This document shows positions 35,437-62,165 of a stretch of DNA of 64,000 nt, in pieces. Positions within the stretch are counted from its first letter, which is position 1, and every line of letters starts with the position of its first letter. Origin of the DNA: Diphasiastrum complanatum (Eukaryota; Streptophyta; Lycopodiopsida; Lycopodiales; Lycopodiaceae). The translations under genes and the position numbers were made by a program. The DNA lies in NCBI GenBank assembly GCA_029204225.1, contig CM055112.1, positions 1,559,314 to 1,623,313 of the forward strand. The letters run 5' to 3'. The notes beneath the pieces were generated by a model. It saw nothing but the letters and a program-made list of their open reading frames with translations. It searched no databases and was not told the DNA's origin.

Positions 35437-35592
35437 TATTTTGGCTCAATAGTGGCATTACAAGTGGAAATGCATAATTTGCATCTATGCCAAATTTATT
35501 TCTATCAACATCCTACACCTAGATGCTTGATGTAAAAAACATAAGACCCCTATATCTAACATAGATAATCTTTTTCAATTCTTCACAATGCC
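35437..35592 (-). repeat. Fragment of the 809-bp copia LTR family
   Basis: ggctcaatagtggcattacaagtgg and onward (tatcaacatcctacacctag) match 2,560-2,700 of the young element's LTR with several substitutions and small indels. It is an older relative broken at both ends. Confidence 0.85.
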
Positions 35593-35879
35593 CTGTAAAT
35601 AATTATGGGCATATAGAAAGATAGAGACAATGGAAAAAAGCATCCATTGTCATATACAAGACGCACATGTACATTCTCAGAAAATGAGAAATATATTGAT
35701 ATTTATGAGAGCTTTTACAAATATTGTATCATGATTGCTCTATTATCTGAACAATTCCGCCCAAATCTTTGCATTTGATTTTCTCTTCATGTCTTTTACG
35801 TATTTGCACAAACATACATCAATCAAATTATAGTTAGTGATCCAAATATTGACAAAAAGGATAATGAATACAAATTAAT

Positions 35880-37034
35880 ATACAAATTCATAGATTTCAC
35901 ATACCAATTTTCCATCCAATATAAAGCTGAAATATTCAGGGATATCTTGCTGTAAAAGTGTCAGTTCCGTTCTAATGTAGAATAAGGTCCAGTCCTGCTC
36001 AACCTCAATATTAGTAAGTAGCTCCCCATTTGCCATGATATCAATGCCTATACGATCAGTGTGTCCAATGTTGTCTAGATCTTGATCTAATGGGACCCAA
36101 GTACCATTGTGTTCTTTCCATCTCTGATAATAAAACACCATAAGAAATATCTGCAGTGGATCTTATATCCCAACCTTTGTCCATGAATTACAATAGAAAA
36201 TCATCTGATAGATTTTTACAAACAAACAATGTGGGAGTTCGATGCACCTCCATGTTTGAAAAAGAGCTGACAAACAATGACACTGGAACAAACCAGCTTA
36301 AGTGCACATTTTTTGATCTAGTACTAGTTTTGAGTAACTTCTGTACATCATTATATAGCTTGGAATGAAAACATTTTATTATATTGTCATTGACTGCAAT
36401 CCACCACACGTTATCTTGAAAATTAGATAGAGGTATAGACTCTAGTTTTTCCATTCCTCCATTTCTGTCTGGAATATACATAGCATCATGAAAAAATATT
36501 TCAGAATCTGCAAATTCTTTTGTTGTTCGTCCTCTATCTTGCAATTTGCCAATTTATGAATGGATGACATCTATAATACCTGAAAGAGATGCCACAGGTT
36601 CCCATTCATGTATATTTGAAGGATATAGATCTGCAATACAAAATCATAATACGCTCCGATTCATATATATGATTACGTTTTAAAAATGACAAGCAACCCA
36701 AAAAATTAAGATACTTACAATTACACTTTCAAAAATAATGTGGATTTACAGCCTCCACATTTAGTTCTGAATGCATATAAACATATTGAATAAGCACCTC
36801 TGAAATGGTTTGTCCTCTTGAAGAAGCTTTGAAATCAATAATCCGCCCTTTCCAATAAGATCTATATGTATACTTGGCCTCTTTCTTTTGGTGAAAAGCC
36901 CCTCTCGCCGATGGATGCATTAGTACCCAAGAAGCCTTATGATATTCATGAGCAATCCATGTGCCATCGTCTTCCCTCTCATTATAAAAAATTGCAGAGC
37001 ATATCAAGGATCTCGGTCTTCTTCTCATCACCAT
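35880..37034 (-). pseudogene. Unrecognised multi-exon coding remnant
   Basis: Three exon-like blocks in one strand. 37,034-36,729 reads DDGTWIAHEYHKASWVLMHP, later YTYRSYWKGRIIDFK and SEVLIQYVYMHSELNVE. 36,544-36,188 reads IFFHDAMYIPDRNG, DNVWWIAVNDNIIKCFHSKL. 36,141-35,875 reads WKEHNGTWVPLDQDLD, IGIDIMANGELLTNIEVEQD and PEYFSFILDGKLV; that last part resembles a ubiquitin-like (beta-grasp) fold. Introns are plausible (a ttgcag acceptor near 36,633), but start and end are missing. I do not recognise the family. Conserved-looking W, Y and acidic residues suggest former coding function. It could belong to the CACTA element to its left or be a host gene. Confidence 0.5.
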
Positions 37035-37399
37035 AGCTTGAAGAGTTCACGTTTGAACTTGTCAATATCAGAGTCCAAAGTATAATAGGCGCCAAACCTA
37101 TTTGTGAGTCCCAAGATAATTTTAACTTGAGGTTAACCCAAGCAGTTTAGTCAACTAGTCGTTGCGCTTGCCAGCCAATAGTATGCTTCCAATCTACTGG
37201 ACCGGAAATTCAAATTTGCCCAAACATGAATTGTGTTTTCCGGGTCAGGAGAGTTATGTTACATAGAAGCCACTATGTCAAGAACCAATTGGGCCACATG
37301 GACATAAATAGTGAGGAAAAAAAAAACTCGTAAGAAATGGCCCCTCTAAGTTTGAGAACTCCTGTAATGTGCGCTCGTTCCCTATATCTACACCACTTA

Positions 37400-38536: not shown

Positions 38537-38548
38537 TGGTATCAAAGC
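38537..38548 (+). promoter_or_regulatory. Primer-binding site, one-base variant
   Basis: TGGTATCAAAGC follows the LTR; it is one base off the TGGTATCAGAGC of the other elements. A gag-like start (atggcatccaaggagaccct, about 38,598) lies 50 bp on but is soon interrupted. Confidence 0.75.
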
Positions 38549-39535: not shown

Positions 39536-39544
39536 CCTATAGTT

Positions 39545-40139: not shown

Positions 40140-40794
40140 TGTGAAAAATACAGATCCTAAGTGGATCTAAACTCCAAGATCATTGGCTTGAATGCTTGCA
40201 CTCCAAACTACATAAGCTAGGAATTGGCAACACATTCTATGCTACCTAGAATGCAAAGAACTTGATCAAAAAGCATTTATCACAAATGGAAACTTCCATA
40301 AACATCAAGTGCGGCCCAAAATAACATTATACAGTCCATAATACATCAGCCTACCACTTTTGGAAAGCACCTAAGATCATACACAATAGCTTGAAGACAA
40401 TACACACAACAATGCTCTCAATGGAGGAAGAAACAATGACAATGATCTATTGATCTCAATGAAGCATACAAAAGGTTTCTCCAACCTGTTCTCCACGACT
40501 TCCCTACTATTTATGGATGAGGAAGATGACTCTCTCTCCTCTCTCTAGAAGGTACTTGACCCTAGATATTCCCTATATAGGAAAAATAGCTAAAAATGGC
40601 TTATATGACCAAAATACATCAAAATGGTCTCATTTTGAAGGGTATGAAGTTTGACACTTCATCATACTGAAAAAATACAGTAAATAAAAACATTGTGGCC
40701 TGGTTCACACGTGTGAAACTCCAGAACCAAAACTATTTACAATTTTAGCCAATTTAGGCCTCAAACTAGCTAGGAAATGTTGACAATTTTCACA
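40140..40794 (-). repeat. 3' LTR of the intact copia element
   Basis: Starts TGTGAAAAAT and ends TTTTCACA in plus orientation. On the minus strand CACACGTGTG (40,706-40,715) lies upstream of a TATA-like TATATAGGG (about 40,572-40,580), which is followed by a purine-rich run. Confidence 0.95.
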
Positions 40795-43700
40795 CTCCCT
40801 CTTCAACATTGGATGCTAGTTTCAACATAGTCTTTGAGCACATTCCAAGATTAGATCTATGCATTAAATATAGGTCCTTTCCCAATGGTTTGGTGAAGAT
40901 ATCAGCCACACACTCCTTTGAAGAGACATGTTGAAGCTCCACCTCTTTGGCAATGACTTGATCTCTCACAAAATGGTGAGCAATCTCAATGTGCTTGCTC
41001 CTTGCATGAAAAACAGGATTGCTTGCCAAGCTTTGGGCTGAAAGGTTATCACAAAGTATGATTGGAGTCTTCTCTGGTTCCAGCAAGTGAAGATCCAATA
41101 ACATCCTCTTGATCCAAAGAATCTCCTTGGTGCATGTTGTTAATGCCTTGTACTCGGCTTCGGTGGAAGATAGAGAGATAGTTGGTTGCTTCTTTGATAG
41201 CCATGAGACCACTCCATCTCCAAGATAGATTGCAAAGGCACTTGTTGACTTCCTATCCATTTGATCACCTGCAAAATCTGAATCTGAAAATCCACAAAGG
41301 TTAGGTGTAGTACCTCCATACAAGATGCCAAAATCTCTAGATCCCGAGATGTATCTAAGTACTCTCTTTCCTAGCTTCCAATGAGCCTCACTAGGATCTT
41401 GCATAAATTGACTTAGTTTACCAACCACAAAGCTTAGATCAGGTCTTGTGATGGTTAACCATATAAGAGATCCTATTAGCTTTCTATAGAGAGTAATGTC
41501 CTTGAAGGATCTTTCATTGCTTCTTGTAGTTAGCTTTACATTTGATTCCATAGGAGTAGAAACAACTTTACAATCTTCCATATGAAACCTTTTTAGAATA
41601 GAGTTAACATACTTTTCTTGACATATGAATGTAGATTTAGAAGTTCTAATAATCTCTATTCCTAAGATATAATGAAGTTTACCAAGATCTTGAATTTCAA
41701 ACTCTCTTTTGAGTGCCATCTTGATTTCATCTATATCTAGATTGTTACCACCACTTAAGATAATGTCATCAACATAGATCAAAAGTAAAGTGATATCATT
41801 TTCATTCAATCTAAAGTAGAGAGAATGATCATACTCACTCATAACAAATTTTTGAGAAAGTAAGAAGGAATTGAGCTTAGCATACCAACTCCTTGGTGCT
41901 TGCTTTAGCCCATACAAACTCTTTTGGAGATAGCACACATGATTAGGCTCATCATGTGAAACATAGCCCTCGGGTTGCTCCATGTAAATATCTTCTTCAA
42001 GATCACCATTCAAGAAGGCATTAGTAACATCCATTTGCCACATATCCCAATCATAAAGAGTTGCAAGAGAGATTAGGATTCGAATAGTTACCATCTTTGC
42101 CACGGGTGCAAAGGTCTCATCATAGTCAATACCATATTCTTGAGCATACCCCTTTGCCACCAACCTTGCCTTGTACTTGTTGATTGATCCATCTTGATTT
42201 GTCTTGATCTTGAAGATCCACTTACAACCAATTGCCTTCTTGTCCTTTGGAAGCTTTACCAACCTCCATGTGTTGCTTTTGATGAGTGCTTGATGCTCAT
42301 GATCCATGGCTTGGATCCATTCCTTCTTTTGAATTGCTTCACCTACACAAGTTGGTTCATCAAAAGAGGTAAGAAAAGCAAAGTTAGAGTTGTCCACCAC
42401 TTGCTTTCCTTTTTCATCATAGGTTAGCCTTGATGGCTTAGCCCTTTGCCTTTGAGTCTTCCTTGAAGTTTGCTTTGGAGTGGCATCTCCATCTTCATCC
42501 AAGACATCTTGCACATCATGATGATTAGTAGGCACATCAACATCAACATCAACAACATTGGAAACATTCTCTTCATGAAAGATGACATCCCTACTTATGA
42601 CAACTTTCTTTGTAGAAGGAATGTACACTTTGTAAGCCTTGCTTACTTCACTATAGCCAACAAACACACCCTTCTTTGATGAAGGATCTTCTTTAGTTCT
42701 ATCATCAAGTGTGATATTGACAAAACATGTACATCCAAAGATCCTACAATGCTTGACACTCGGCCTTCTACCATAAAGAACCTCATGAGGAGTTTTACCA
42801 TCCAAGGAAGCACTTGTCCATCTATTACATAGATAGTTAGCACATGCTAAAGCTTCCCCCCAAAAAGACTTAGCAAGATTAGCATGTAGTCTCATTGCCT
42901 TGGCACATTCACAAAGGGTTCTATTCTTCCTCTCGGCCACTCCATTATGTTGTGGAGTCCTAGGACTAGACATCTCCCTCTTAATCCCATGTGCTATACA
43001 AAAGTCTTTGAACCTATTTGAGGTGTATTCCCCTCCATTATCAGATCTTAAGCATTTGATCTTTGTATTGAATTGGTTTTCCATTTCATTCTTGAACTTG
43101 ACAAATGCAGCAAACACTTCATCCTTACTTTTAAGAAGATAGATCCAAGTATACCTACTAAAGTCATCAATGAAAGTTGCATACATCTTTGCCCCACCAT
43201 TGCTAGTTGTACTAGAAGAATGAATATCAGAATGCACAAGTTGAAAAGCTTCTTTAGATCTAGAAGTAGATCTAGAATAAGCAAGTCTATGAGATTTGGA
43301 CAAGGCACAATGTTCACAAACACTATTGTTTGCAACAAGACTTTTAGGGAGACCAAGAACAAGCTCTTTCTTTGCCATTACCTCCAAAGATTTGAAGTTG
43401 GGATGTCCCAACCTCTTGTGCCAAACTTCTTGGTTTGTCAATTGCTCCCTAGCCATACATCCTTCATGATTAGAGATCACACATGCATCAAGCTTGAAAA
43501 GTTTACCATGCCTCCTACCTTGAGCAATCAAGGATCCACATTTACTTATCAAACATGCATCTCCAATGAACTCCACATCAAGTCCTTTGTCAATCATTTG
43601 ACTTACACTAAGCAAATTCTTAGTGATTGAAGGAATGTACAAAACATTTTCAAGATTTGCTTTCCTATTTGTTGAAAGGGAAATAGGAATAGTGCCTATG

Positions 43701-44743
43701 CCTTTGATGTCACATTGACCATCATTTGCAGTGTAGATGATGTCACCTTCTCTCTCATAAGACAATAAGGATGTAAAGTATTCCTTATGTCTTGTCATGT
43801 GAGATGAGGCTCCACTATCAATCCACCAAGGATCATTATCATCTATGTTGGCTAACAAACTTGAAGTCATAACAAGTGATTCACATGTGTTATGTTCTTC
43901 CTCATCTATTGTAAGATTTCCTTGCCTCTCTCCTTGCTCTCTTTTCTTCTTATAACATTCATTTGCAAAATGACCTTTTATCCCACAATAAAAGCACTTG
44001 AACTTTGACTTATTGTTCTTAGTAGAAGAGGAAGAGGAAGAGTGATCATCATGATCAAAGTTACCACCTTTGGACCATTTCCCTTTGCCTTTACCTTTGC
44101 CCTTGAATTTGTCTTTTGTGAAGAAAGCCTCTTCACCTCCACCTTGCAAGGATGCACCATCAAGCTTTGATTGCAACCTATGTTCTTCAGCCAATAAGAT
44201 TTCTTGCAAGTCAACCACACTTGGCAAGACTCTTTGAATGGCAAAACTTTGCACAAGGTTAGCATGTTCATTTAGCAAACCATTCAACATAACTTGGACT
44301 ATTTCACCATCTTTTATGTTCTCATCAATGCATGCTAAATCATCACTTAGGGACTTAACTCTCAAGATAAATGCATGAGCACTTTCACCCTCTCTTTGCC
44401 TACTAGAAAATATTTGTCTCCTTAGGGTCAATACCCTAGATGTGGACTTTGATTCAAAGAGCTTCTTTAAGGCATTCCATGCCTCACTTGCACTTTGACA
44501 CTTTCCAACTTCCTTGAGAAGTTCATTTGTAACATTCATTTTAATGATATGAAGAGCCCTTTTGGCCTTCTTATCAAACCTTTGTTGCTCTTGAAGTGTG
44601 AGAGGTCTCTCTTCAATTTCTGCAACTATGTCCATGAGTTCATTCAACTCAAGTAAGGACTCCATCCTCACTTTCCAAGTAGAGTAGTTTGATGAACTCA
44701 ACCTTTCACTAGACTCTAGCATGATCCCACCATTGGAAGCCAT
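40790..44743 (-). CDS. Copia gag-pol polyprotein, 1,317 aa, intact
   Basis: Domains in order: UBN2 gag (1-~200); basic linker; CCHC knuckle from Cys250 (CFYCGIKGHFANEC); aspartic protease at Asp309 (DSGASSHM); integrase zinc finger from His442 (WHKRLGH...CEHC). The integrase core has Asp506, Asp568 (SDNGGEY) and Glu604 (NGVAERKNRT), with D568-E604 matching the DD35E spacing. Reverse transcriptase follows, with YVDD Asp992-Asp993. RNase H comes last (SDSDFAGD near 1,150; SLSSTEAEYKAL; RSKHIEIAHH). Length is normal for the family. No stop or frameshift occurs. The stop codon overlaps the first bases of the 3' LTR. The protein would form cytoplasmic particles, reverse-transcribe the element RNA and integrate it. 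The start at MASNGG matches related gags here. Confidence 0.95.
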   Translation of the reverse strand: MASNGGIMLESSERLSSSNYSTWKVRMESLLELNELMDIVAEIEERPLTLQEQQRFDKKAKRALHIIKMNVTNELLKEVGKCQSASEAWNALKKLFESKSTSRVLTLRRQIFSSRQREGESAHAFILRVKSLSDDLACIDENIKDGEIVQVMLNGLLNEHANLVQSFAIQRVLPSVVDLQEILLAEEHRLQSKLDGASLQGGGEEAFFTKDKFKGKGKGKGKWSKGGNFDHDDHSSSSSSTKNNKSKFKCFYCGIKGHFANECYKKKREQGERQGNLTIDEEEHNTCESLVMTSSLLANIDDNDPWWIDSGASSHMTRHKEYFTSLLSYEREGDIIYTANDGQCDIKGIGTIPISLSTNRKANLENVLYIPSITKNLLSVSQMIDKGLDVEFIGDACLISKCGSLIAQGRRHGKLFKLDACVISNHEGCMAREQLTNQEVWHKRLGHPNFKSLEVMAKKELVLGLPKSLVANNSVCEHCALSKSHRLAYSRSTSRSKEAFQLVHSDIHSSSTTSNGGAKMYATFIDDFSRYTWIYLLKSKDEVFAAFVKFKNEMENQFNTKIKCLRSDNGGEYTSNRFKDFCIAHGIKREMSSPRTPQHNGVAERKNRTLCECAKAMRLHANLAKSFWGEALACANYLCNRWTSASLDGKTPHEVLYGRRPSVKHCRIFGCTCFVNITLDDRTKEDPSSKKGVFVGYSEVSKAYKVYIPSTKKVVISRDVIFHEENVSNVVDVDVDVPTNHHDVQDVLDEDGDATPKQTSRKTQRQRAKPSRLTYDEKGKQVVDNSNFAFLTSFDEPTCVGEAIQKKEWIQAMDHEHQALIKSNTWRLVKLPKDKKAIGCKWIFKIKTNQDGSINKYKARLVAKGYAQEYGIDYDETFAPVAKMVTIRILISLATLYDWDMWQMDVTNAFLNGDLEEDIYMEQPEGYVSHDEPNHVCYLQKSLYGLKQAPRSWYAKLNSFLLSQKFVMSEYDHSLYFRLNENDITLLLIYVDDIILSGGNNLDIDEIKMALKREFEIQDLGKLHYILGIEIIRTSKSTFICQEKYVNSILKRFHMEDCKVVSTPMESNVKLTTRSNERSFKDITLYRKLIGSLIWLTITRPDLSFVVGKLSQFMQDPSEAHWKLGKRVLRYISGSRDFGILYGGTTPNLCGFSDSDFAGDQMDRKSTSAFAIYLGDGVVSWLSKKQPTISLSSTEAEYKALTTCTKEILWIKRMLLDLHLLEPEKTPIILCDNLSAQSLASNPVFHARSKHIEIAHHFVRDQVIAKEVELQHVSSKECVADIFTKPLGKDLYLMHRSNLGMCSKTMLKLASNVEEGV
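40795..40806 (-). promoter_or_regulatory. Polypurine tract
   Basis: GAAGAGGGAG on the minus strand ends next to the 3' LTR. It lies inside the last codons of gag-pol, so the primer and the C-terminus of RNase H share sequence. Confidence 0.8.
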
Positions 44744-45903
44744 GATTCTAATGTTTTTTCAACTTTTAGGTTTTGTCCTAAAGCACTTAGCACTCACTTT
44801 TCTCTCAACAAATGATAGATAAAGAGATCTATGAAGATTTAGGACCCTAAAACACTTCTATCTTGAACCTAGATGGTTTCCAAGCATAGAAAGGAAGATT
44901 GAAACACATGCAACACTTTGCACACACTAAGAATGGATTACAAAATCAAACCAACCTGAACACACTCTTGCTTAAGCTCTCAAACTTTCCAGCAAGTGAC
45001 CAAATCAAGTTATGGTGTGAAGAGTTACTTGCATTCTTAGAAAATACCCAAAACTAGGATGCCAAGATTACCTAGTAATGAACAAACTTGATCAACATAT
45101 GATCAACACACTAAGATATTGATTCAACCTGTAAAACCACATGTAAACCACACTTCTAAAAGTTTATAAAATCCAGCAAGTGATAAATACAAGATTTAGA
45201 GGTGAATGAATGAGCACACTTAGTGAATCACAAGACTAGCTTCACTATCTTGTCAAATCTTGGTGTTTAGATGTAGATCTAAGATCACTTCACATGAGAA
45301 TGTTCCTCAACCTGTTAAGAACCTGAAAACACACTTGCATAATGGTTAACACCTTCCAGCAAATGCTCCAATCAAATTACATAAGGAGAGTTACTTACAT
45401 GCTCAACAAAGTACACCAAAAATTATGCCAAAATTGATGACAATCTTTACAATATGCTCTTCACAATGGAGCTTACAATATGTTCACCCAAAAAAGGGGA
45501 TCTTTCATCCAAATGGGAGCTTTGCTCAGCCTTTAGGAGAATTACAACTCACTCAAAAGAGCATTTGTCATCCACTTAAGGAGAAGTTTCATCCACTTAA
45601 GGAGAGTGTTCATCCAAGAATGGAGATTGTCAACAATAGGATTGAAAAGAACATTGTTAGTATTGAATATGCACAAGCCTCACAATCACAAATGATTAGG
45701 TGTTATGATCTGATCCAAAATAGTTTCTTTTCAGCCTCTAATCTTCAATAGACCTGAAATATGCTTTTGATCCACAAGTTCAACTCACAAAACAAAGGTT
45801 AGTAAGATTTGATCAACAAAGCAATGCAAAATCATGCTAGAACTTGATCAAACATCCAAATATCACCAAAAATGGAATACTTACTGTAAATAGAAGCCAA
45901 CCA
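44744..45903 (-). other. 5' leader of the intact copia element, ~1.16 kb
   Basis: A long non-coding leader between primer site and gag. Three loosely similar stretches mention aacctg...ccagcaa(g/a)tg (about 44,955-45,000, 45,125-45,185, 45,310-45,365), each followed by tgatcaa or caaatcaa, so the leader contains degenerate internal repeats. A 108-codon plus-strand frame here is antisense and I do not consider it a gene. Confidence 0.6.
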
Positions 45904-45915
45904 GCTCTGATACCA
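45904..45915 (-). promoter_or_regulatory. Primer-binding site (initiator tRNA-Met)
   Basis: The minus strand reads TGGTATCAGAGC directly after the 5' LTR. Confidence 0.95.
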
Positions 45916-46569
45916 TGTGAAAAATACAGATCCTAAGTGGATCTAAACTCCAAGATCATTGGCTTGAATGCTTGCACTCCAAACTACATAAGCTAGGAAT
46001 TGGCAACACATTCTATGCTACCTAGAATGCAAAGAACTTGATCAAAAAGCATTTATCACAAATGGAACTTCCATAAACATCAAGTGCGGCCCAAAATAAC
46101 ATTATACAGTCCATAATACATCAGCCTACCACTTTTGGAAAGCACCTAAGATCATACACAATAGCTTGAAGACAATACACACAACAATGCTCTCAATGGA
46201 GGAAGAAACAATGACAATGATCTATTGATCTCAATGAAGCATACAAAAGGTTTCTCCAACCTGTTCTCCACGACTTCCCTACTATTTATGGATGAGGAAG
46301 ATGACTCTCTCTCCTCTCTCTAGAAGGTACTTGACCCTAGATATTCCCTATATAGGAAAAATAGCTAAAAATGGCTTATATGACCAAAATACATCAAAAT
46401 GGTCTCATTTTGAAGGGTATGAAGTTTGACACTTCATCATACTGAAAAAATACAGTAAATAAAAACATTGTGGCCTGGTTCACACGTGTGAAACTCCAGA
46501 ACCAAAACTATTTACAATTTTAGCCAATTTAGGCCTCAAACTAGCTAGGAAATGTTGACAATTTTCACA
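45916..46569 (-). repeat. 5' LTR of the intact copia element
   Basis: The 654-bp partner of 40,140-40,794. It holds the promoter for the element: CACACGTGTG at 46,481-46,490 upstream of TATATAGGG near 46,350 on the minus strand. Confidence 0.95.
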
Positions 46570-46574
46570 ATTTA
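46570..46574. repeat. Target-site duplication, right copy (ATTTA)
   Basis: Matches 40,135-40,139. Confidence 0.93.
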
Positions 46575-46850
46575 AAATCAATGTTTAAAACTCCAAAGAC
46601 ACGACCTCATGCCAAATCTCTGATTCTAATGCATCTTTCACACACGAAGGCTCATCAAAGGAGATGAAAAGTGCATTACCAATCTTGGCTTGCTCCCCTT
46701 TGTCAACATAAGTTAGCCTAAGTTCCTCGGCCTTATAACTTAAAGATTTGCTTGGAGTCTTGGATTGAGAAAATTGCTCCTCAAGCCTCGACCCCTCTCC
46801 ATCATCCTCTTGAAAAATAGGTAGCTTCATGGATCCAACATCAATTAATT
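46575..46850 (-). pseudogene. Older copia pol, right part (upstream of RT)
   Basis: On the minus strand: LRLTYVDKGEQAKIGNALFI, then SFDEPSCVKDALESEIWHE. This is the linker between integrase and RT seen in copia (FDEP...A......W..A). The sense of the text continues directly into NHTWKLVDLPP on the other side of the young insertion, showing one interrupted gene. Upstream integrase is not present. Confidence 0.8.
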
Positions 46851-48100
46851 AAGCCTAGTGAGCATTTTCCTAATTAGGTTTATTTTCCTTGACTAGCATT
46901 GATGTCCCTTTGAATAGTGTTGTCACATTAATGCCATATGCAGGTGCTCAATACAATTGGGATAATTGACATTCTCTATGTCGTCACCAATGGAGAATGC
47001 AAATATATGGTTTAAATTCCAATTCTTGTTCTTTGGAAGAGAGTTGCAAAGAAAAATTGTTTCGAAAGTGCATCGTATGTATATCGATGGGTGTTAAAAA
47101 ATACATGAAAACATCGTTGCATATATAGATAATTCTATTTTTTACTCTTCATTAACTAATTGTGACTTTGAAGAATGCACCAATGGAAAAGTGTTAAAAT
47201 TGAATCCATCTTCAAATCAATATAGATCGTTTTTAGGAGGAGTGTTAAAATTGAAAAACAATCCATATTGATTTCTTGGCTTGCTACAAATGTTGTACCA
47301 TGCAAGTATGTAGCCCATTAATGCAAAATGCCAAGTTTGGACTACATAGAACTCGAGCTACATGGTTATGTATTATCTAGTTTGATAAATGCAACTTGCA
47401 TATAGTTTGTAGACATAGAATTAGCATGATTATGCTTGTAGAAGCTCGTGGCAGCTCACATGCATTAATTGTAAGTGATCCATAGTGACATGCAAGGCAT
47501 GCACAAAGTTTAATGGACACATGCATGATGATTTGGACATTTCTAGTTAGAACTAGTACACTTGTAAAAAGTTGGTAGAATTTCATGCATGACAAGTGAC
47601 AAATGGCACATAGACTCTAGATGTCACTTTAGATGTCATTTTGGAATGGATAGATATGGTTCTACCTCGAGCTACCTCAATCTCCATAAATATGTGTAGC
47701 TCTCCACACAATCAATAATGTAGAACCAAAGTTTTGTAGCTATCTCATGCTTGGTTGGATCTAAACTGTTTTTCTTGTTATCTCTCTAGCTTTCTCTCTC
47801 TAACTCGTGTTGAAGCTAATGCTAAAACACTGTAATCTTGTACTTTTAATCATTATTTGATTCATTGCTATCATAGTCTATTGATTAGCATGCTAGATTG
47901 TGAATTAGCCATATCTTCTGAACAATCTAGAATCAGGGTACTGTGCCAATCACAAAGCTTAATCAAGATCATTCACTCTTGTGAACATTTCCTACATGTG
48001 TGAATTCTGGAATTTTCAGCAAAAAGAAGATTGTGAAAAGCTACATATATAATATTTTGTGCGATTAAACCTATTAAATGTGGTGAAAAGCTATTAATCA
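46851..48100. other. Spacer, no supported gene
   Basis: No domain in any frame. Around 47,640-47,860 a TC-rich run followed by gctaatgctaaaacactgta has the look of an LTR R-region, but I see no partner copy. Two similar phrases, gtgaaaagctacatatat and gtgaaaagctattaat, lie at 48,030-48,100. Confidence 0.45.
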
Positions 48101-48104
48101 AAGC

Positions 48105-49726
48105 TCGGTTGATGTCCTTGGAACTTTTTTGAGACCACTCGTGGATGAATTGGAGTATCTTTTTGTAAGTGGAATTGAGCTATATTACGACTATCCTCCC
48201 GACAACAAGCATTGTCATCTTTGTGCCATGTTGATAATGGTAATAGGAGATCCTCCTGCCCAGCGTAATTGGTCTCCTCAAAGATAGTGGCAAGGCTCTT
48301 TGTTGTCGAGATAAAGCTCAAGCTACCTTTGAAAATAGTCATGAAAAATGTATTATATGGTGGAAACAGATATCAAACCAGATATCCTCCAACCAAGCAG
48401 CTAATTTCTGAAATGGTAGAGGTCTTATCTAGATCAAAGAGGCCATGTCGCCAAATTGAAAAAGAAGAAATACTAAGAGGTGCTACACTATCAGGAGAGT
48501 CAACTCTTCAGAGGTTGTATGAACCGTATGGCTTCAATCTATCAATAGATTTTGTTTATGATGTTATGCACATCTTTTTCTTGAAGTTGTTTTGCAGATT
48601 TATATCATCTTTCTTCAAGGAATCAACAAATGATATGAAAAAAATCATCAATGTAGCAGTTTCAGAGGTGTTCAAGTCTACCCCCACCTCACTCCGCTAT
48701 GGACGTTGGCCACATGCGCCAAGGAAGTATCATGGAAACTTCAAAGCATAGGAGAATCAAAAGTTTATACAATGGTGCTTGCCTCACGTCCTGGGTGTTG
48801 TGACTAGTGTTCCCAGATCTTTCTATGACCTAGGTCTTCTATTAATTGATATTGCACAATTTTTCTACAACTACAGTCATGACATAGGATGGTCAAACAA
48901 GGATATAGAAATAGCCAAACGTTTGTTGCTTTCTTGGACGTTCCACAATGAGGAATCCTAAGGAAAATATTCATCTCTGTTGGAGCATATAGCAGGTTTG
49001 AGTTTCATTTTGATTTTCATATAAACGATGTGCATTTTTTGGTCTACACCTCTTATCTCCTTGTTAACAATGCAGGCAGCGGAGAAATTTTTTACGACAT
49101 TTATCGACCTGACATGCATGATGTTTTTTGGTGCATGCTTTTGAGCGAGAGTTATCTAGTTATGTGAATATTTCTACCAATAACCTAAGTATTGAATTAT
49201 CATTTTCTCAATATTATAGAAGGCAACTTTTCACTCTAGTTCTTGAGATGATCGAAAATGACAAAGATGGTCTAATCTCCTTTGAAATAATGCTCTTGGA
49301 ATTCCATACTTGTTTGATTCTCCCATAAGGATACGCAAATGAAAGTGTCCAATCCTCCATATATATGACATGGCATGAGCATGGAATTCTACAAGTTTCA
49401 TCTATTGCGAAGGCCAAAGAAGTCTGAAAATCACGTATTGCCTATAGTCAAAATTATACATGTAAGAGTCTTTTGGAAGACAAAGGGATTTCGATTACAA
49501 AGAGAAAAGAACAATATCGAGCTCCAAAGAAGGAGGAAGTCCAATACGTAGAGCATTTTTGGTGTATTGAAAGGAATCAAGGGCAATTTAGACGAGTTAC
49601 AATTTATAGGAAAGTATTTTTGCGAGGAGTTTTTGCATTGCAACACAAGGGAGAGTGCATGCTTTTCTTTGGTGCTAAGTACTACAAGCAACAAATTGTA
49701 GTTCAAGATAGTGAAAAAAGTCGCTG
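48105..49726 (+). pseudogene. CACTA Tnp2-like transposase pseudogene
   Basis: DVLGTFLRPLVDELEYLFVS, then GIELYYDYPPDNKHCHLCAM and VIGDPPAQ, match the Transposase_21/Tnp2 pattern (L.PL.dEL..L...G...yD......F.l.a.l...i.D.PA). Further on are MKNVLYGGNRYQTRYPPTKQ (compare the family's GHRRFLP..H box), SIDFVYDVMHIFFLKLF (compare ..hDvMH.), CLPHVLGVVTSVPRSFYDLG and, in the last part, YVEHFWCIERNQGQFRRVTI. Frameshifts and stops separate the blocks. This gene would encode the main transposase of an En/Spm-class element. The family assignment rests on the first block and the overall order. Confidence 0.6.
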
Positions 49727-49834
49727 AGCTAACTTCAATCAGAAAACGTATAATAAATTAGTTGTGCACTTTAAAAAAACAAATCATATTACCTATCAGA
49801 TACTAGATGAAAAATACTTACTTCTACATCAACA

Positions 49835-50625
49835 ATCTCCATGTGGCTATTTACAGTGGCCCCATCTGGCCTTGGCAAAAATGGCAACATTCTGCTGTAC
49901 ATCATGTCCATTTCGGCATGGGTAGACTTCAAGGAATTCATATTTAAACAGATGGGATTAATGATCCTATCTGAATCTTCCCTAAGGGATAATTAGTTAA
50001 ATTGAAAGAATTACAAAACTTATTAAAAATATGTGACTTGAATATATTCTATGTAATCACTTACTTTTGGCAGTATGGAATAATAAAGACTTTGGTCTCC
50101 GAGGTTGTATGGAGAAGATACTTTGCCGCCTTAGTTGGACTATGAAGGTTGTGTGCAAAAAAGGACATCACAACTCCAATATCCTTAGTATCATCGCATT
50201 TACATCTATTTACAAAATACATCAAACCAGCCTCCACAACTGGATTAGATATATCTGATGTCTTCTCCTTCAAGGCATTTCAAAAGTCTTTATTGTGTGA
50301 TTTACATAATCAATTGAACTTAGACAAAAAGAAAATTGACCTCCTAACTTATCAATCTCTTTGGCAACATACTCATCAAAAACTATATACCTCTCAGAAT
50401 CCAAAAATGAATCTTTCGGATCAACAAGAATCTTACACAAAGATCCTTATAAAAATCACCTATTAAAGTTATATCTAGATCCGATATTATTTGATCTACA
50501 GTAGAGGTCATATCCTCATTATTGTGGGATGGAATGGAGGGAATGGAAGAGGAACTACTTGAATAGTTAGGGGTGGTGGGAGGAGAAGAATGCATTGCAG
50601 ACTGGTGTGATGGTCCAACCAAAGG
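49835..50625 (-). pseudogene. Possible Ulp1/C48 protease-like remnant
   Basis: On the minus strand: DLDITLIGDFYKDLC, a one-base shift, then KILVDPKDSFLDSERYIVFD and EYVAKEIDKLGG. After a TGA comes NPVVEAGLMYFVNRCKCDDT, DIGVVMSFFAHNLHSP and KVFIIPYCQK. An 84-bp GT...AG intron is followed by DRIINPICLNMNSLKSTHAE. Secondary order and the phrases resembling (V/I)FIP... and L(D)SLKS fit an Ulp1-type cysteine protease, often carried by plant CACTA elements. The catalytic HW box is not visible and Asp seems replaced by Asn. The call is tentative. It converges on the Tnp2-like remnant. Confidence 0.35.
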
Positions 50626-50735
50626 ACGAGAGATATGAGGGGGGGATGGTGATTCGCTAGATACGACCCTTTGCCTGGCAGGCCTAGTGGGCTTGGTCTG
50701 TTTTCTCTTTCTTCGTTGAGGAACACGCCCTCTCT

Positions 50736-51135
50736 CTATAGGTGGTGGCCTAGAGGTGAAGCCACTCTTAAGACCTGATCGTATGTACTCCTTAGCCTCA
50801 TGACAAGATGCATGTCATGAGGCATGAGGGTAACTCTCTTGGCGTGCACTGTGCAAAGCTTAGAGTCCTCAAAAAATTCAACTTGAAAGTCCCCATAGGC
50901 AGTATGGAGGGCTTCCATCATCATGTGAGAGTGACTTTGTCACTAATCTCACAGGCCTATAGAATGGAGCATGGGGAATCAGAAGATTCGTTGTCCTCTG
51001 TAGTCTTATGATATCCCTTAACCATGATCTGCTAGGCCGACCTACTCTTCTACTAGTGCCCACTGCCCTTTGTACATGAGGACGAGGAGGCGGGGCAAAT
51101 GTGGTAAGATGTGTTGTCTGCTTGGTATGGGCCAT
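50736..51135 (-). pseudogene. Centromeric-histone-H3-like (CENH3-type) pseudogene
   Basis: Starts MAHTKQT at 51,135 (histone H3: MARTKQT). A proline-rich tail follows, then LRDIIRLQRTTNLLIPHAPF, aligning with the H3 alphaN/alpha1 region. The phrase TTNLLIP...PF is typical of CENH3, where canonical H3 has STELLIRKLPF. A one-base shift then leads to MEALHTAYGDFQVEFFEDSK followed by LCTVHAKRVTLMPHDMHL, the alpha2-loop2-alpha3 part of the histone fold. About ten residues between alpha1 and alpha2 (loop 1, part of the centromere-targeting region) are missing. With the frameshift this cannot make a normal histone. Downstream in a third frame is a basic, proline/serine-rich segment (GRVPQRRKRKQTKPTRPARQ). 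A TATA box lies 250 bp upstream. Confidence 0.72.
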
Positions 51136-51383
51136 TTCAACCTAAGATATCGTTATAGCATGCCAATCAGAGAGAACAGAGCATATCAGACAGGGGAGAC
51201 GCATGATGACGATATGCGAGATGGCATATCACTATGACGCGCGGAGGGGGAAGCTTTACTAGTATCAAACTCTCTGGGCACGTGGTGGCAGTATGCGGAT
51301 AGCGAGGTTGGCAAGTGAACGTAGAATCCTGAGGAGCTCTAGAGAACCAAGAAATCCGAAATGGAAATATGAGCTCAAAACAT

Positions 51384-51392
51384 CCTTTTATA
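51384..51392 (-). promoter_or_regulatory. TATA box upstream of the histone-like frame
   Basis: TATAAAAGG on the minus strand, about 250 bp before the ATG at 51,135. Confidence 0.6.
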
Positions 51393-51415
51393 CCTGTAGA
51401 ACGTCCCATCATTCT

Positions 51416-51645
51416 CACACGTGTGATCTGACACCTGCACCCCCGCACGTGTGGCCACACGCATCATCACACAGACCTGCCACGTGTAAGGATATCAATG
51501 GTCTCATCAATCATACGGCTGGCATGCACGTGCGAGGACACGTGTCTTGATCTGGGCCACACACATGTAATGGGACGACTAGCTTGTACAATCATACAGT
51601 TGGCATGCACGTGCGAGAACACGTGTCAAGATTCGATTTGTACAT
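51416..51645. promoter_or_regulatory. Dense ACGTG (G-box/ABRE-like) cluster
   Basis: About eight ACGTG cores in 230 bp: CACACGTGTG at 51,416, then gcacgtgtggcc, ccacgtgtaa, gcacgtgcgaggacacgtgt and again gcacgtgcgagaacacgtgt. The last two form a direct repeat (ggcatgcacgtgcga), about 75 bp apart. Such cores bind plant bZIP/bHLH factors. The cluster lies between two divergent frames. Confidence 0.6.
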
Positions 51646-51978
51646 GTGTCATGCTAATGATTTGGCCATTGTTTCCACACATGTGACAATTTTTACCGCA
51701 CGTTACCGAAACATGTCTACGGTTCAGATGCTCTGTATTACACTATATATATGAGTGTCGTTTTTCGAGATCAGTTTTGCATATTGAGTCTAGGAGACCA
51801 ACCTGCTCTAAAATCAGTACATACAATATTGCTACCACGTGCCCAAAACTGACACTTCCATAGTCGCACTGCTCCCCTGGTGCATACTTCTGATATCCAA
51901 AATTGTGTGTAGTGCATATCGCCATCACACGCCCAAGTTTACACTGTTTATGTCCCATCCTAACCGGCACCTCATATC

Positions 51979-53526
51979 GATATGGCCTCCTCTTCTGCTA
52001 GTTAGATCTATGATATAGCTCTTAGTTCTTTCCTTGTTGATGTTGAAGTTAGCGACAGACAGGCCCTTTTTTTGTCCTATTTCGATTTTTAGTTTGACAT
52101 AGAGAGATTTGTTATTGAGCATAGGGAAGCTTTTCCCAAACTGTACAAGGATTTTTATGAGTGATTGCAACAGGGTACCCTTCTGATGGATGGCCTGAGA
52201 TTTGTGCATTTCACATATTTGGCTCATGCTCAGCCTAGTGCCAAGCAAAGGTATGATCGTAAGTTTACCAAACTTATCGATCTGTTTAAATGTGTCATAC
52301 CCTATGAGGAACACAATCGAGTATGTCGCTTCATTCAGGAGGGCATGGCCTTCATGTTTTTCTTATCTGCTCTTATCCCTGACGAGGCAGAATCTTCTGG
52401 GTCATCTATGATTGGTTTGCCTGCCCCCACTACTCGTGTGGCTTCAAAGGTTTCCATTATTGATGAGGTTTTAGGATATGCAAAGGAGGCCAGGCAAGCA
52501 CAACAATATGATCCTGCCAAGGCTCGTTCTTTATCTATCTCTCCCTTATCTACCGTGAGCCAGATGGACCAGAGCAGAACCCTGATGGACCTCCCTTTGT
52601 ACCATATGGATGATATGGCATTCTTGTCCATTAGCGACATCAGAGACGTAATGGATCTCAGAGAGGATGAGATATTATCTCTTTTGTCAAGGATGATTTC
52701 TGAATTTAGTGATTTTATTGACTTTGATGATAATGACCTCATAGATGGCATCGACTATGAGGACCAAGAAGAATGGGCAAGTGGCACAGATGCCCTTCAA
52801 AGGATGTTATCTGAGAGCAGGGCATATGAGGCTAATATGCCGAGTGAGGAGGAGTTTTTGGCATTTCAGAAAAGGTATCTGCCACCTCCCATATATACTA
52901 TTCCAGCTGACCAGCAATCGACCATTATTGCTGGTCACAATTTAGAAGTTGCTGGTGTGATCCAAGCTGATGAGGAGGATCTGGTAAGTACACCTTCTCA
53001 CAAAAATCATTTACCATTTAACGTGTAACTGATGATTGATCTGCTAGTTTGACTAACACTTGATTATGTGTTGTAGGAAATCGTTGAAATTGATGCCTTT
53101 GCTAGCAGGCATGGAGGATTGAGAGAAAGACAAGGCGGGAGACCAAAGGATGCCTTATTGGCTCATTATTTGAAACATTTTGTAAATAACAAAATTTGTA
53201 TTCTTAACGAAAGGTTTTTTGTTAATGCAGGAACCTTGATCATGGCCATCAAGGCCCTATCTTATTTTGCCCAAGGGCATAAATATCCAAAAAATACATA
53301 TAAAATCATTTTTGTCAAAAGAGATGTTGCTCTTAAAATGTTCAATAAAGTGCCAGAAAATGTTCCTATGAGATCATCTGCTCTGGCAATTCTACCAGGA
53401 TATATAGATTTGAGCAAAAGGCGATCCACTCGATTTTTGGATCCGTATGATGGGAAAAAGTTCTTTCATGACCACACAGCAAAAATTGTCCTTAGAGACA
53501 ATGAGAAAAGAATGATTTATGCAAAT
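51979..53526 (+). pseudogene. Unrecognised spliced frame, divergent from the histone-like gene
   Basis: From an ATG at 51,979 the frame has three early stops (TAG, TAG, TGA) and is then open from 52,165 to 52,983. A 93-bp GT...AG intron (52,984-53,076) joins it in phase to a second exon (EIVEIDAFASRHGG...). A possible second, very short intron ends at 53,231. Recognisable local features are only an acidic region (FIDFDDNDLIDGIDYEDQEE) and a charged start (RYDRKFTKLIDLF). I do not know the family. It is cut at about 53,526 by copia RT sequence. The early stops look like single transitions (CAG to TAG, TGG to TGA). It may be an accessory gene of a CACTA element or a host gene. Confidence 0.5.
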
Positions 53527-54672
53527 TGCACAAGGCACTATACGGTCTGAAGCAAGCTTCAAGGGCCTGGTATGATAGAATAAATCATTTCTTGTTGCAG
53601 TACGACTTTACCTCCTGCACCGCAGATTCAAATGTGTATCTAAAATCGAAGGGGCCAAGCTATCTATAATAGCATTATATGTTGATGATTCCCTAATCAT
53701 CAGCAATTCAAATCAGTTGCTACAAGAAACTAAGTCCTTACTCTCATTAGAGTTTGAGATGATTGATTTAGGCCCAATCCATTACCTAATTGGAATGGAG
53801 ATTCATAGAGATCACGCGAGCAGAAGGGTCACCATAAGCCAACAATCCTACTTAATTAATGTACTTCAAAGATATGGCATGGAGGATTGCAAGCCCATAG
53901 ACACTCCTATGGATCCAAGATACAAACTATCCAAAGACATGTGCCCCAGAACAAATGCAGATCAGCAAAAAATGCGTAATTAGCTTTATCAATCTATCAT
54001 AGGTTCTCTCATGTATTCTATGATTTGCACACAACCTGATCTAGCATATGCTGTAAGCACGCTATCACAATTCATGTCCAATCCAAGCCTGCAACACTGG
54101 AAAGCTCTACAAAGAGTTTTGAAATACATTCAATCCTCAAAGGACTATGTCTTGAGTTACAACGGGAATACAGAAGCCGCACTCTCTTTGATTACCTACT
54201 AATTCAGATTGGGCAAGAGACATAGATACCAGAAAATCCACCTTTTGTTACATTTGCTTTCTTGAAGGAGGACCCATTTCATGGAATAGCAGAGATACAT
54301 TTCATTATCCTCTATGCAATCAGAATATGTCGCAGCTACGTCAACAATGAAGGAGATTTTATGGCTTAGAAAACTACTACAGGATCTGAGATTCACAAAT
54401 TGGTCCAACTAAACTCCAGTGTGACAATCAGAGTTGTATAGCTCTGTCATTGAACTGACGAACTCACACAAGGACCAAACATGTAGAAGTTCAACTTCAT
54501 TTTCTCAAAGAGAAGGTTCAGAATGAAGATGTTGCACTAAGTTACTATCACACCGATAGTATGCTGGCTGGCATTATGACAAAATCATTGCCAAGGGACA
54601 AACATTCTACTTTAGTAGAATTGTTAAATCTCAATTTGAGTCCAAATTCATAGCAGCAAGCTTAAGGGGGAG
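53527..54672 (+). pseudogene. Copia reverse transcriptase C-terminus and RNase H, degraded
   Basis: Reads YGLKQASRAWYDRINHFLLQ, IIALYVDDSLIISN (YVDD), IDLGPIHYLIGMEIHRDHA and YLINVLQRYGMEDCKPIDTP. RNase H follows, with several frameshifts (SEYVAATSTMKEILWLRKLL; RTKHVEVQLHFLKEKVQ; MTKSLPRDKH). It ends in a purine tract (aagggggag) against an LTR. Upstream pol, integrase and gag are missing. It differs from the families at 15 kb and 40 kb. Confidence 0.85.
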
Positions 54673-55540
54673 TGTTGGAATTCTAATCTTCTCCTACTCA
54701 TCCCTTCGCCCTCCTTCTACTCTCAAGAATTCTATCTCTCCAAATTCGTCTGCAGAATTACATGCAAAGTTGAATAAGGTAGAACCGCAAAGTCATCACC
54801 AGATTACGGTCTGACAGAAGGGAACCGTTAAAACAACGTTTATAGAGAAGCACGACAAACCACAAACTGCAAAACCACAGGGAGTCGTTAAAAATTGTAG
54901 ATTTCTATCTACGAGCACTTGCGAAATCATCAATGGCAACGAAAGTAAAATCTTGTTGACCACCACAAGTGACCTTCTTACGACCTCCTACGAATGACCA
55001 GAGTCAACTCTCCTCAACTATTTAAATGTAAGCAACCTACTTATGATTATCAACGAAGTCGACCAGCAACAACAATTTGCGAGTTCCTATGAAGTTAATT
55101 GACAACGGTTGACCCATCTCATTGTTTAGCTCCGTAAGTTATCACTTACGGTCATCAACGAAGGAAGCAAACGATCACCTACAAAGCAAAACGATCAACA
55201 ACTGATGGAACAACCAGCGGATGTTCAAACGATTATGGATAGACTACGGCCATCACGGCCTACATCTTTGCAATATGACGCATACGGCGGATACGTTACT
55301 CTGTACTTCTCCTCCTTCACGACGCTCTAATAACGGATCTATGGATCTTGTTTAAACGGTTGTTAATCATCTTGTAAACTATAATTACAGTAAATCAAAA
55401 GACTCTGACAACTATAAATATGTATTTAAGCGAAAAGAAGGGGTGATAGATATGCGTTGTTGAGTTGAACAACCTGTATGCATAGAGTAATCAAATGACC
55501 AAAAAGTCTTAAGTAACTAGCTCCTTAGACTTAGTGATTT

Positions 55541-55579
<39 letters not shown>

Positions 55580-55930
55580 GAACTGTAGCTATTGTTTTGA
55601 ATCTGTAAGTAGGAATACACGCTTATCAGCGTTTATTGTGTTCCGATTCTCTTTTCTATATATACGGATTCGCTACTGTTCAATCTTTATGTTCTTTATT
55701 GAATGTAATTGTCTCTCTCACTATCTTGCACACAAACATGCTTATCAGAGACAGAGGATTGCATGGCTATCCAAGATGCCTAATGCTTCGCAATCCTTTT
55801 GTTACGGTAGTCTCAGACTCCTACTTTGATAACCCAAAAGGGATAGCAAGGTTTTGATTCTGTTCCTAGTCAATCCACGTTCCTGAAATTGCAGTTACTA
55901 TTGTGTTTATTATTTTCTTACTGTTGGTAG
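54673..55930 (+). repeat. Copia LTR (second family), 3' LTR of the pol fragment
   Basis: Begins TGTTGGAATTC directly after the purine tract. The part from 55,500 on matches 37,985-38,525. An AG microsatellite is at 55,545-55,575. The right boundary is approximate. Confidence 0.75.
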
Positions 55931-56139
55931 AGGCATCATTTTACATCATAATCGCCTCTCATGTTATGCTTCTGTCATGTTCGTTGCAATCGTAATCCAT
56001 CGTAGACCAAGCATTTCACATCATACACCAACACAGGTATCTTTTAGTCAGTGAACGTTTGACCATCACCTTCGGGTCTTCAGTCCTCGAATCTTTAATC
56101 TTTGTGTCCGGGCAGCTCCCTTGTATTTCTACAGACTTG

Positions 56140-56335
56140 AGCTCAAAAGCTACATACATGACCAGAATCAAGACAATGAGGGATGAACTGCAGTTTATTG
56201 GTGAGCACATACGTGATGTAGAGCTGGTGCACAATGCATTGTGTGGCATTGCATAATCTTATCAGATGTTGTAAGTGGAATAGCATCAAGAGAGAGATTG
56301 CCAACCTTTAACGATGTTAGAAATTTTTCCGACAA
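56140..56335 (+). pseudogene. Copia gag fragment
   Basis: TRIKTMRDELQFIGEHIRDV followed by ELVHNALCGI matches the central UBN2 gag region (..i..ird.L..iG..i.d.elv...L.gl). After a stop one reads ASRERLPTFNDV. Nothing else of this element is certain. Confidence 0.65.
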
Positions 56336-57222
56336 GGGATTGGTCCCACCAGAAAGCCCCAGTGAGTGAAAGGGCCCACACTGCCCTTATGTGAGTGATA
56401 GGATCTATTACCACTTCCAACCCTGAGGGTTGTCCTAATCACCCCGTACTCCCAATCAATGAGACTTTTCCAGGCTCTCAGAAGTATGATTGCAAGGATA
56501 TCGACTATTGAGTCCTCAAAGTTCTTCTCAATGTGGTAGAAGTGAGAGAATGACTTCCCGTCATTCTATGAGGTCAGTAGAATATAAAACCATCCTTAGA
56601 ATCAAGTACTAGCTGAACCTTAGATATGGTAAGTAGCAATTCAAAAGAGCAATAAAATGGTTACATCTCTTTTTCGTTCATAGTCGAGGATAGGTAAAAT
56701 AAACGGTTCACGAGATCTAAGGATTTCCCCTAGACGTTCAGCACCAAAGATTGACACAATACGTTGAATGTAAGCAATTTTCTTCCCATTAAGTATTTTA
56801 ATACTCAAGTATGGTGATTGTACATAGGGAATATTTTGATCAACTGGTAAATTTGGTCTAAACATCTCATAGACAATCTCCTTTCAGAAATGATAATTAA
56901 CTAAAGTCTTTTTTAGAATCCACAAATAATCATAGATGCAAATGAGTAGCCGTAACAGGAAAACTAAAGTCACTATACACATTGATAGTCAGATTTCATT
57001 CATAGAATTCTAGGATGCATAGGAGTGAAATACGTACCATCAAAATGTTAAATCACCAAATGCTTAACCGGAGAAATCTCAGTCATGGGTGTAGTTGCAG
57101 AACTGCTATCACTCAGTAGTATGGATAATGGATCATAGGTACGTGGTCTCCAACTGTAAACACTTCAGTTCTACAGTCAGAAAGTATCGTATGACAGTCT
57201 CTTCTGGACTAGCTCTCAAAAC
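56336..57222. other. No supported gene
   Basis: Short frames only. The minus-strand frame at 56,641-56,865 has no domain known to me. Confidence 0.5.
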
Positions 57223-57883
57223 TGATGTGAACGTTGAACAATTCGGATGGATTTCAGATATGATTGCTGGTCACTGCCAACTGTATCATTCCTTCAATCC
57301 TCCAGAATGTAGACAGACATTGTTGATCTACGTTTTTTGATTAACACAACATTCAACAGAATTCAACCAGTGTGTGGAATTGATAAAATGAGTGAATGAG
57401 ATACACAAACGATGCAGACAACAATTCATTCAAGATTAGACAAGATACGAGTGATATGTGCATAATAGCTATAGTATCATCTATAGATCTTCTTGTTTTC
57501 TTGCGATGTATGACAGACCCACACAACATGTCGGCGTGACAGAAATGGCGCTCTCCCACGAGTAATGTCTCGCTTACTAGTTGACTTGTTGGATCTCTGT
57601 GGATCCTACTTACAAAACTTGTCTCGCTCACATGCGGACTTCAATTCTATGTTCTATTTGTGTGTCTTGCTTACTAGCATTAGACATCTTGTATTTTGCA
57701 TCAACTAGAAGGTATATAGTCACGTTGTGTAACTTCTAGATTAGAGTGATTAAACATCTACAACTACTCATGAATTACAAGAGTGGCGGATTAGCCATGA
57801 CTTAGAGTGCCTCACGTCTTTTCGTCAGAGTGAGGGCTGAAAGCTAGCAAAGCTTTGGTGATAGAAACGTTTTGTTTCTTCAG
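57223..57883 (-). repeat. 3' LTR of the third-family copia element
   Basis: About 661 bp. The right edge is set by the minus-strand purine tract TTTGAGAGAGAGC. The left edge is set by identity of its first 80 bp with 62,086-62,165, apart from a few substitutions. Confidence 0.8.
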
Positions 57884-62072: not shown

Positions 62073-62084
62073 GCTCTGATACCA
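62073..62084 (-). promoter_or_regulatory. Primer-binding site (initiator tRNA-Met)
   Basis: The minus strand reads TGGTATCAGAGC, one base inside the 5' LTR edge. Confidence 0.88.
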
Positions 62085-62165
62085 CTGATGCGAACGTTGA
62101 ACAATTCGGATGGATTTCAGGTATGATTGCTGGTCATTGCCAATTGTATCATTTCTACAATGTAG

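Follow-up and report, generated by a model that had tools for sequence, protein, structure and literature searches.

A repeated, transposon-like unit of Diphasiastrum complanatum with an H3-type histone joined to an Ulp1-like protease region

The stretch of Diphasiastrum complanatum DNA analysed here (64,000 nucleotides; assembly GCA_029204225.1, contig CM055112.1, positions 1,559,314 to 1,623,313 of the forward strand; hereafter, the window) contains a dead copy of a repeated element in which a single open frame runs from an H3-family histone into the first part of an Ulp1/C48-like cysteine-protease region. The fused frame is found as a regular gene of the element. The histone-carrying body of the element left in the window occupies positions 49723..53517 and holds the end of the Ulp1-like gene, the histone gene, a divergent promoter, and a divergent gene. 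Identities and copy searches refer to an assembly of 1.74 Gb. Ten copies were fetched as two 10-kb stretches each and compared with the window and with each other; the segment 49723..53517 is common to all ten, whole or in part, at 87-99% identity.

The histone open reading frame (ORF) lies on the minus strand at 50736..51141. It is frame-shifted and has lost approx. 7 codons relative to intact copies, and the fold is split by the frameshift into two overlapping frames, of which 50736-50939 matches PF00125 above the cut-off (E = 7.2e-12) and 50878-51141 below it (E = 3.5e-5). These matches bear out the minus-strand histone fold proposed by an earlier reading of the same sequence (the first-pass annotation). 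The linker and the N-terminal Ulp1-like part, which form one gene with the histone, follow at 50061..50735 on the same strand; this segment carries frame breaks and matches the fused frames of three other copies (L038, L039, and L040). The next feature, Ulp1-like exon 2 (49789..49992, minus strand), keeps the Asn box, and the HWS His box does not lie in this frame. The Cys-box exon 3 of sister copies is gone from the window beyond 49723, and no scanned window frame reaches C48. On the other side of the histone, the presumed divergent promoter (51142..51990) contains nine CACGTG (G-box) palindromes, compared with 0.28 in dinucleotide shuffles, and 19 ACGTG motifs, compared with 2.4; it is the window's richest 850-bp bin for ACGTG, which confirms the ACGTG-rich gap described previously. 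Beyond the promoter, the divergent gene runs on the plus strand as presumed exon a, which is acidic (52165..53028), and presumed exon b (53077..53517), which is cut by an insertion at 53518. The corresponding frames (52165-53028 and 53077-53550) gave no Pfam family, the former yielding only a chance-level match (0.59). Thus, the two-piece plus-strand frame that had been reported to lack a known family is real, but its end after 53517 already belongs to inserted sequence.

The element is a repeat. A search with window positions 50000-52000, in which 40 of 915 first-look candidates were scored, listed at least 44 matches at 80-100% identity, with some copies split over several rows; rows spanning at least 1780 bp, which is near full length, number 25 (window included) and show 85-100% identity. 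The order in the copies is left part, Ulp1 exon 3, further Ulp1 exons, histone, promoter, divergent gene, and a large right-hand gene, all forming one block. In most copies, the sequence to the left of window position 49723 is the counterpart not of the Tnp2-like piece that lies there in the window but of an inverted window segment, 35587..37369. This displaced left end of the element (minus strand) adjoins the segment starting at 49723, in one orientation, in L011, L013, L017, L023, and L027, and it includes the terminal inverted repeat (TIR) CATTACAGGAG at 37359-37369, read on the minus strand. The ends of the element are imperfect inverted repeats, CATTA...TAATG, that agree at 23 of 31 positions in a hand count. 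The left end reads CATTACAGGAGTTCTCAAACTTAGAAGGGCC, with CATTACAAG in C12; as CATTACAG/AGAG, it was found in seven of nine left-side stretches (L009 not counted) with differing flanks, L011 and L013 sharing one insertion, and L019 and L021 are without it. On the other strand, the right end is CATTAGAGGAGTTACAAACATCAAAAGGGCC, with A as the eighth base in one copy. It was seen as TAATG in three of ten right-side stretches, two of which (L020 and L022) are 99.5% duplicates, and the remaining stretches are truncated, interrupted, or diverge before the right end. Short fetches at five more loci (C6, C1259, C2, C7, and C19) added a left end at C6 and right ends at C6, C2, and C7; the C1259 fetch ended approx. 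13 bases before the left end, and neither end was found at C19. In C12 and C6, the two copies for which both ends were found, the element is approx. 9.0 kb long. Flanks are shared among the fetched copies only by duplicates. With its many copies, shared inverted termini, and differing flanks, the window locus is a copy of a repeated unit of approx. 9 kb with TIRs and is, by form, a DNA transposon.

The organization of the histone-Ulp1 gene is best read in less decayed copies. L038 and L039 have unbroken frames of 364 amino acids and L040 one of 362 amino acids, each starting at MARTKQ, continuing through histone and linker, and ending in the first Ulp1 part with IIPYCQK or IIPYYQK. The histone part matches PF00125 at E = 8.5e-25 in L039 and 6.2e-25 in L058, and all 60 listed PDB matches are H3, H3-like proteins, or H3/CENP-A chimeras. 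In the family to which most of these copies belong (family 1), downstream frames, presumed to be exons, carry a box HWSxHIISL...MNS followed by a box QQxDGHSCGWF, and the fused frame may be spliced to these His and Cys exons. We take these motifs to be the Ulp1 active-site boxes. Their form differs between groups: HWS..ISL...MNS and QQ.DG.SCGWF in family 1, HWS...MNS in L058, and QQNDAFSCAWF in a second family. Single Ulp1 exon pieces mostly gave no Peptidase_C48 match.

A genome search with the histone ORF of L017 returned 6159 first-look candidates; the best 150 were scored, and all 150 match at 69-99%. Fifty-five of these listed places have no internal stop (frameshifts not counted), and 95 carry stops. 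Relatives of the histone-protease gene, with histones approx. 45% identical, also exist in this genome. L058, whose identity to five family-1 proteins is 42-50%, represents a different family; its open frame of 486 amino acids contains the parts named above as far as the His box. The second family, found beside the C12 copy, has an H3-like ORF 45% identical to that of L017, its own linker, and the Cys box given above; it keeps the histone, the linker, the Cys box, the divergent gene, and the CACGTG boxes. When its open frame with the first histone part, including 89 residues before the Met, was used as a query, 153 matches (150 listed) were obtained out of 5473 candidates, and the lists of the two families do not overlap. 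A rice CENH3 query gave 13 matches at 57-58%, which are presumed, without having been read, to be ordinary H3, and 137 others listed at 37-55%, 13 of which also occur in the family-1 list; the family-2 list shares none of them, and 124 are absent from both lists. Apart from the 13 presumed ordinary H3 genes, there are thus at least 424 non-overlapping H3-like places (150 + 150 + 124). Most of the 124 would be further families of like kind; one of them, L058, was read. Many of the places outside both lists (e.g., C13:31266213, C156:47837, and C10:47288839) have open frames of more than 300 amino acids.

The type of histone was assessed in an alignment and an unrooted 12-row tree, for both of which the H3 and CENH3 reference sequences were entered by hand. 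Family 1 and L058 start with the MARTKQT of H3, and the second family starts with MARTKST. The element histones share with plant CENH3 the MARTK start, LIPxAPF or a similar motif, and, in most of them, the loop-1 Trp; they differ from it in the MARTKQT tail of H3 and in that the loop-1 insertion of CENH3 (one or two residues relative to H3) is absent from the aligned element histones. The tree separates the element histones as one group (99/97), which falls within neither H3 nor plant CENH3. A position as sister to either of them, CENH3 included, would be compatible with this unrooted tree. Therefore, the label "H3-type" is safe, and "CENH3-derived" is not shown. The host CENH3 was not singled out among the matches to the rice CENH3 query.

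Selection was estimated as the ratio of nonsynonymous to synonymous substitution (dN/dS) by Nei-Gojobori counts, with the near-duplicate rows L030, L013, L021, and L034 dropped before all-row counts. Across all rows, the histone fold has a median dN/dS of 0.24 (209 pairs), compared with 1.02 and 0.88 when the two other forward frames are read; of the antisense frames, the one sharing third positions gave 0.37 and the other two 0.81 and 0.93. Codon-position counts across the entire element were flat in the initial copies, and the copies were therefore split into two sets for dN/dS. For a hand-picked set of nine copies, more diverged or more intact, the median for the histone fold is again 0.24, compared with 0.93 and 0.84 in the wrong frames (36, 36, and 33 pairs). 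In the less decayed lineages, natural selection seems to have maintained the histone part.

The large minus-strand gene towards the right end of the element recurs near the histone. At least 150 matches to one of its frames were listed, out of 8866 candidates. At least 43 of the 150 listed histone places have a listed match to this gene within 10 kb, whereas 0.26 would be expected by chance; 41 of these 43 linked pairs are on the same strand, and in 37 of these the right-hand gene lies 2.9-4.6 kb upstream. The linked places are not all independent because some are duplicates of one another. When the joined frames of this gene were searched against Pfam, PF02992 was not among the matches (limit E = 10; HMMER filters drop most matches above 0.1); only two chance-level matches were returned, and no transposase of Mutator-like elements (MULEs; mudrA) was among them. 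Inspection of the protein by eye revealed D, C-x2-C, and H-x4-H motifs (WHLAxDLK, HPCLYC, and VHICTLH), which resemble those of CMC and Transib transposases and are treated as a lead only. The gene is probably the element's transposase, and by these motifs it may be a distant DDE transposase of the CMC/Transib type.

The divergent promoter and the gene beyond it also recur. The presumed promoter contains five to nine CACGTG motifs in six other copies, and the region between the histone and the divergent relative in the second family contains six, compared with 0.24 in shuffles. The relative of the divergent gene lies in L027; it is 35% (piece a) and 42% (piece b) identical and is oriented divergently from the second-family histone. 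In L017 (9425-9719, within the promoter), successive CACGTG motifs are spaced at 28, 35, 46, 35, 46, 35, 35, and 34 bp, a pattern that may reflect a tandem promoter unit.

We consider it likely that the window contains a dead representative of a TIR unit with a histone-Ulp1 gene, a divergent gene, and a right-hand gene, that the unit has relatives approx. 45% identical, and that its histone fold has been under purifying selection among diverged copies. A number of results weigh against this. The tree is unrooted, and both split sets for the selection analysis were chosen by the authors, with L032, L033, L035, and L037 placed in neither. In the set formed by the window copy and seven near copies, dN/dS is 0.65 in frame, compared with 0.73 and 0.66 in the wrong frames (28, 26, and 28 pairs), i.e., the window copy and its nearest copies are in neutral decay. 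The divergent gene gave 0.66 and 1.03, compared with 0.41-0.58 in wrong frames, from few close copies, and one piece of the presumed transposase gave 0.56, compared with 0.45 and 0.57, the other two pieces having too few pairs; neither gene shows coding constraint in this small set of close copies. Because of this, and because all-row values are 0.58 for the linker (185 pairs) and 0.45 for the first part of Ulp1 (129 pairs), the evidence for selection concerns chiefly the histone fold. As for the protease, the exons of L040, joined at an approximate splice, match Peptidase_C48 at E = 0.0011 with 19.3 bits, compared with a cut-off of 20.7, and the C48-like assignment has less behind it than the first-pass annotation implied: the cut-off is approached in this sister copy, and no scanned frame of the window reaches C48. 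His, Gln, and Cys are readable in the Ulp1-like boxes, and the position of the usual catalytic Asp is occupied by Asn. An AlphaFold model of L058 had a mean predicted local distance difference test score (pLDDT) of 35 and was not used for fold searches. The right-hand protein gave no useful match in Pfam, PDB, or PHROGs, and no target-site duplication (TSD), which in CACTA elements is 2-4 bp long, was found in either of the two-ended copies (C12 and C6; n = 2). Finally, the splicing and the role of the histone-Ulp1 product are conjecture.

The first-pass annotation had offered another explanation, in which a CACTA element with a Tnp2 transposase captured a fragment of the host centromeric histone gene at this locus. 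A Tnp2-like piece does lie beside the histone in the window and in two apparent duplicates of it: the plus-strand frame 48087-48287 matches PF02992 (E = 3e-5; 23.7 bits, below the cut-off of 28.6), and the next plus-strand frame, 48269-48751, has no Tnp2 match. The piece belongs to a repeat at 48050..49720 (plus strand) that lies outside the element and has its own places in the genome. At least 64 matches to it were listed, 38 of them of approx. 500 bp or more, including 19 on C20 and 12 on C21. Three of these 38 places have a listed histone part no more than 5 kb away, namely the window, C21:1.707M (100%; only 824 bases of the histone query match there), and C21:19.484M (99%), and a fourth, C21:19.611M, is approx. 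9 kb from one. Because no such neighbour is listed for the other 35, the Tnp2-like sequence is a separate repeat. Moreover, nine of the ten fetched copies lack the Tnp2 part in the fetched stretches, the exception being the 99% duplicate L009. The Tnp2-like remnant is accordingly ruled out as the element's transposase by its separate distribution among listed matches and fetched copies, and the same distribution largely refutes the capture of CENH3 by a CACTA element. Residues such as LIPxAPF and the loop-1 Trp agree with a CENH3 origin, and to that extent the CENH3-like label was apt, but the loop-1 insertion is absent and the tree keeps the element histones out of the CENH3 group. CACTA elements end in CACTA...TAGTG and encode a Tnp2-type transposase (PF02992); here, the ends are CATTA...TAATG, and no PF02992 match was found in the large gene. 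The explanation is very improbable. What stands of it is a multi-copy, transposon-like unit in which the histone segment, the C48-like part, and the divergent gene occur together; the Tnp2 neighbour is not part of that unit.

Three further explanations may be considered. If the histone gene had been picked up by passive transduplication, as reported for Pseudocercospora fijiensis, the copies would be non-functional passengers; the stops in 95 of the 150 listed copies, the decay of the window's own group without constraint, and the lack of constraint on other element genes in a small sample speak in its favour. It leaves unaccounted for the long open fused frames, the dN/dS of 0.24 in diverged copies with wrong-frame controls near 0.9, and the like fusion in relatives with histones approx. 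45% identical, and we regard it as improbable. A descent of the repeats from a virus-derived insertion, instead of a classical transposon, draws on the histones known from some DNA viruses (PMC9145170) and on the absence of a recognised family for the presumed transposase. Against it, a collection of viral contigs scanned once with the 364-amino-acid fusion gave five pattern matches, none of them confirmed, and the repeats are scattered units of approx. 9 kb with inverted-repeat ends and differing flanks; such a descent is as improbable as the CACTA capture. The many open frames could also be read as a host multigene family of divergent H3 variants lying among repeats. This is the least probable of all, given the shared inverted-repeat ends with differing flanks, the partner gene at a fixed spacing, and the 6159 candidates.

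The TIR unit with its histone-Ulp1 gene has partial precedents. In Dothideomycete fungi, hAT transposons with H3-like genes have been described in Pyrenophora tritici-repentis (PMC3538342), where the gene is full-length and has expressed sequence tags, and in P. fijiensis (PMC6710886), where the elements have a hAT transposase and an 8-bp TSD and where Ulp1 is not mentioned. As in the present case, these are DNA transposons in many copies with an H3-like gene between terminal repeats; the lycopod element differs in that no hAT domain was recognised and no TSD seen, and in that its histone is fused to an Ulp1-like region, also in diverged relatives. Transposon genes with a captured Ulp1 domain are known from the Kaonashi/KIU MULEs and as Ulp1-carrying VANC genes; VANC proteins direct hypomethylation and recognise short sequence motifs in the non-coding DNA of elements (PMC13317346). 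The likeness is a transposon gene with an Ulp1 domain, and the differences are the histone as partner domain, the CACGTG motifs in the presumed promoter, and the failure to find a MULE transposase in the element. Ulp1-like domains also occur in the TIR-bearing CACTA-ULP elements Cactavine-2, -3, -4, -5, and -13 of grapevine (PMC2528002), from which the present element differs in having a histone part and no Tnp2 match in its own large gene. Its ends, CATTA/TAATG, resemble CACTA/TAGTG as well. Fungal hATs are the nearest precedent for the histone cargo and VANC genes for protection from silencing; histone cargo in fungal hATs and Ulp1 cargo in plant MULE and CACTA elements are already in print. 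A histone-Ulp1 fusion in a transposon was not found in the open-licence literature searched. The present case combines a histone and an Ulp1-like domain in one gene, which recurs in diverged relatives and shows purifying selection on its histone part.

A role for the fused product may be proposed tentatively, by analogy. The histone part, whose tail keeps MARTKQT as in H3, would let the product enter nucleosomes or bind H4, and the protease would thereby be placed on chromatin. There, it might free silencing factors of SUMO or a modifier like it, and the element would stay expressed. A host bHLH/bZIP factor, or else the protein of the divergent gene, could bind the CACGTG boxes. Such a chromatin-borne counter-silencing role is possible, with the chances somewhat against it. 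The broader proposal is more doubtful still: a very large and old radiation of plant DNA transposons would encode an H3-type variant fused to a SUMO-protease-like domain, the product would edit modifier marks on silencing factors from within nucleosomes, and CACGTG would serve as a site of self-recognition or activation. If the role were true, the element would make its own chromatin protein, with the histone as the address and the protease as the tool, and the question of why transposons keep Ulp1 domains, a cargo whose function is unclear, would become testable. For annotation, hundreds of H3/CENH3-like frames in this genome (at least 424 listed) may be transposon genes.

The window copy itself is dead: it is frame-shifted, cut at 49723, has its left end inverted to 35587-37369, and is followed by foreign DNA from 53518. 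Homology to sister copies reaches its left limit at 49723-49725 in most copies. Because five sister copies (L016, L018, L020, L022, and L028) stop matching the window at 53516-53517, an insertion is placed at 53518. L011 and L013 share the flank of the window, and L012 and L014 share the insertion. Relative to L011/L013, window positions 35587-48021 are inverted, the junction points being 48021 and 49723, and the 1.7-kb Tnp2-like repeat lies at the junction; the arrangement seen in the window recurs, at 99% identity, in its duplicate L009/L010. Elsewhere, the Tnp2-like repeat forms a dense set at C20:5.78M-9.09M (approx. 3.3 Mb), with 19 copies of approx. 500 bp or more, at 76-86%, in both orientations. 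The inserted sequence at 53518..57342 (plus strand), common to L012 and L014, is presumably Copia-like, judging by its frames; position 57342 is the end of their match to the window and is unmapped as an element end. Further to the right, a 78-nt direct repeat of 92% identity occurs at 57221-57298 and 62084-62161, 4863 bp apart. In the flank of the histone element, a long terminal repeat (LTR) retrotransposon is inserted at 40140-46570; its two end repeats, of approx. 655 bp, are identical over reported stretches of 300 and 153 nt, and the insertion is probably young.

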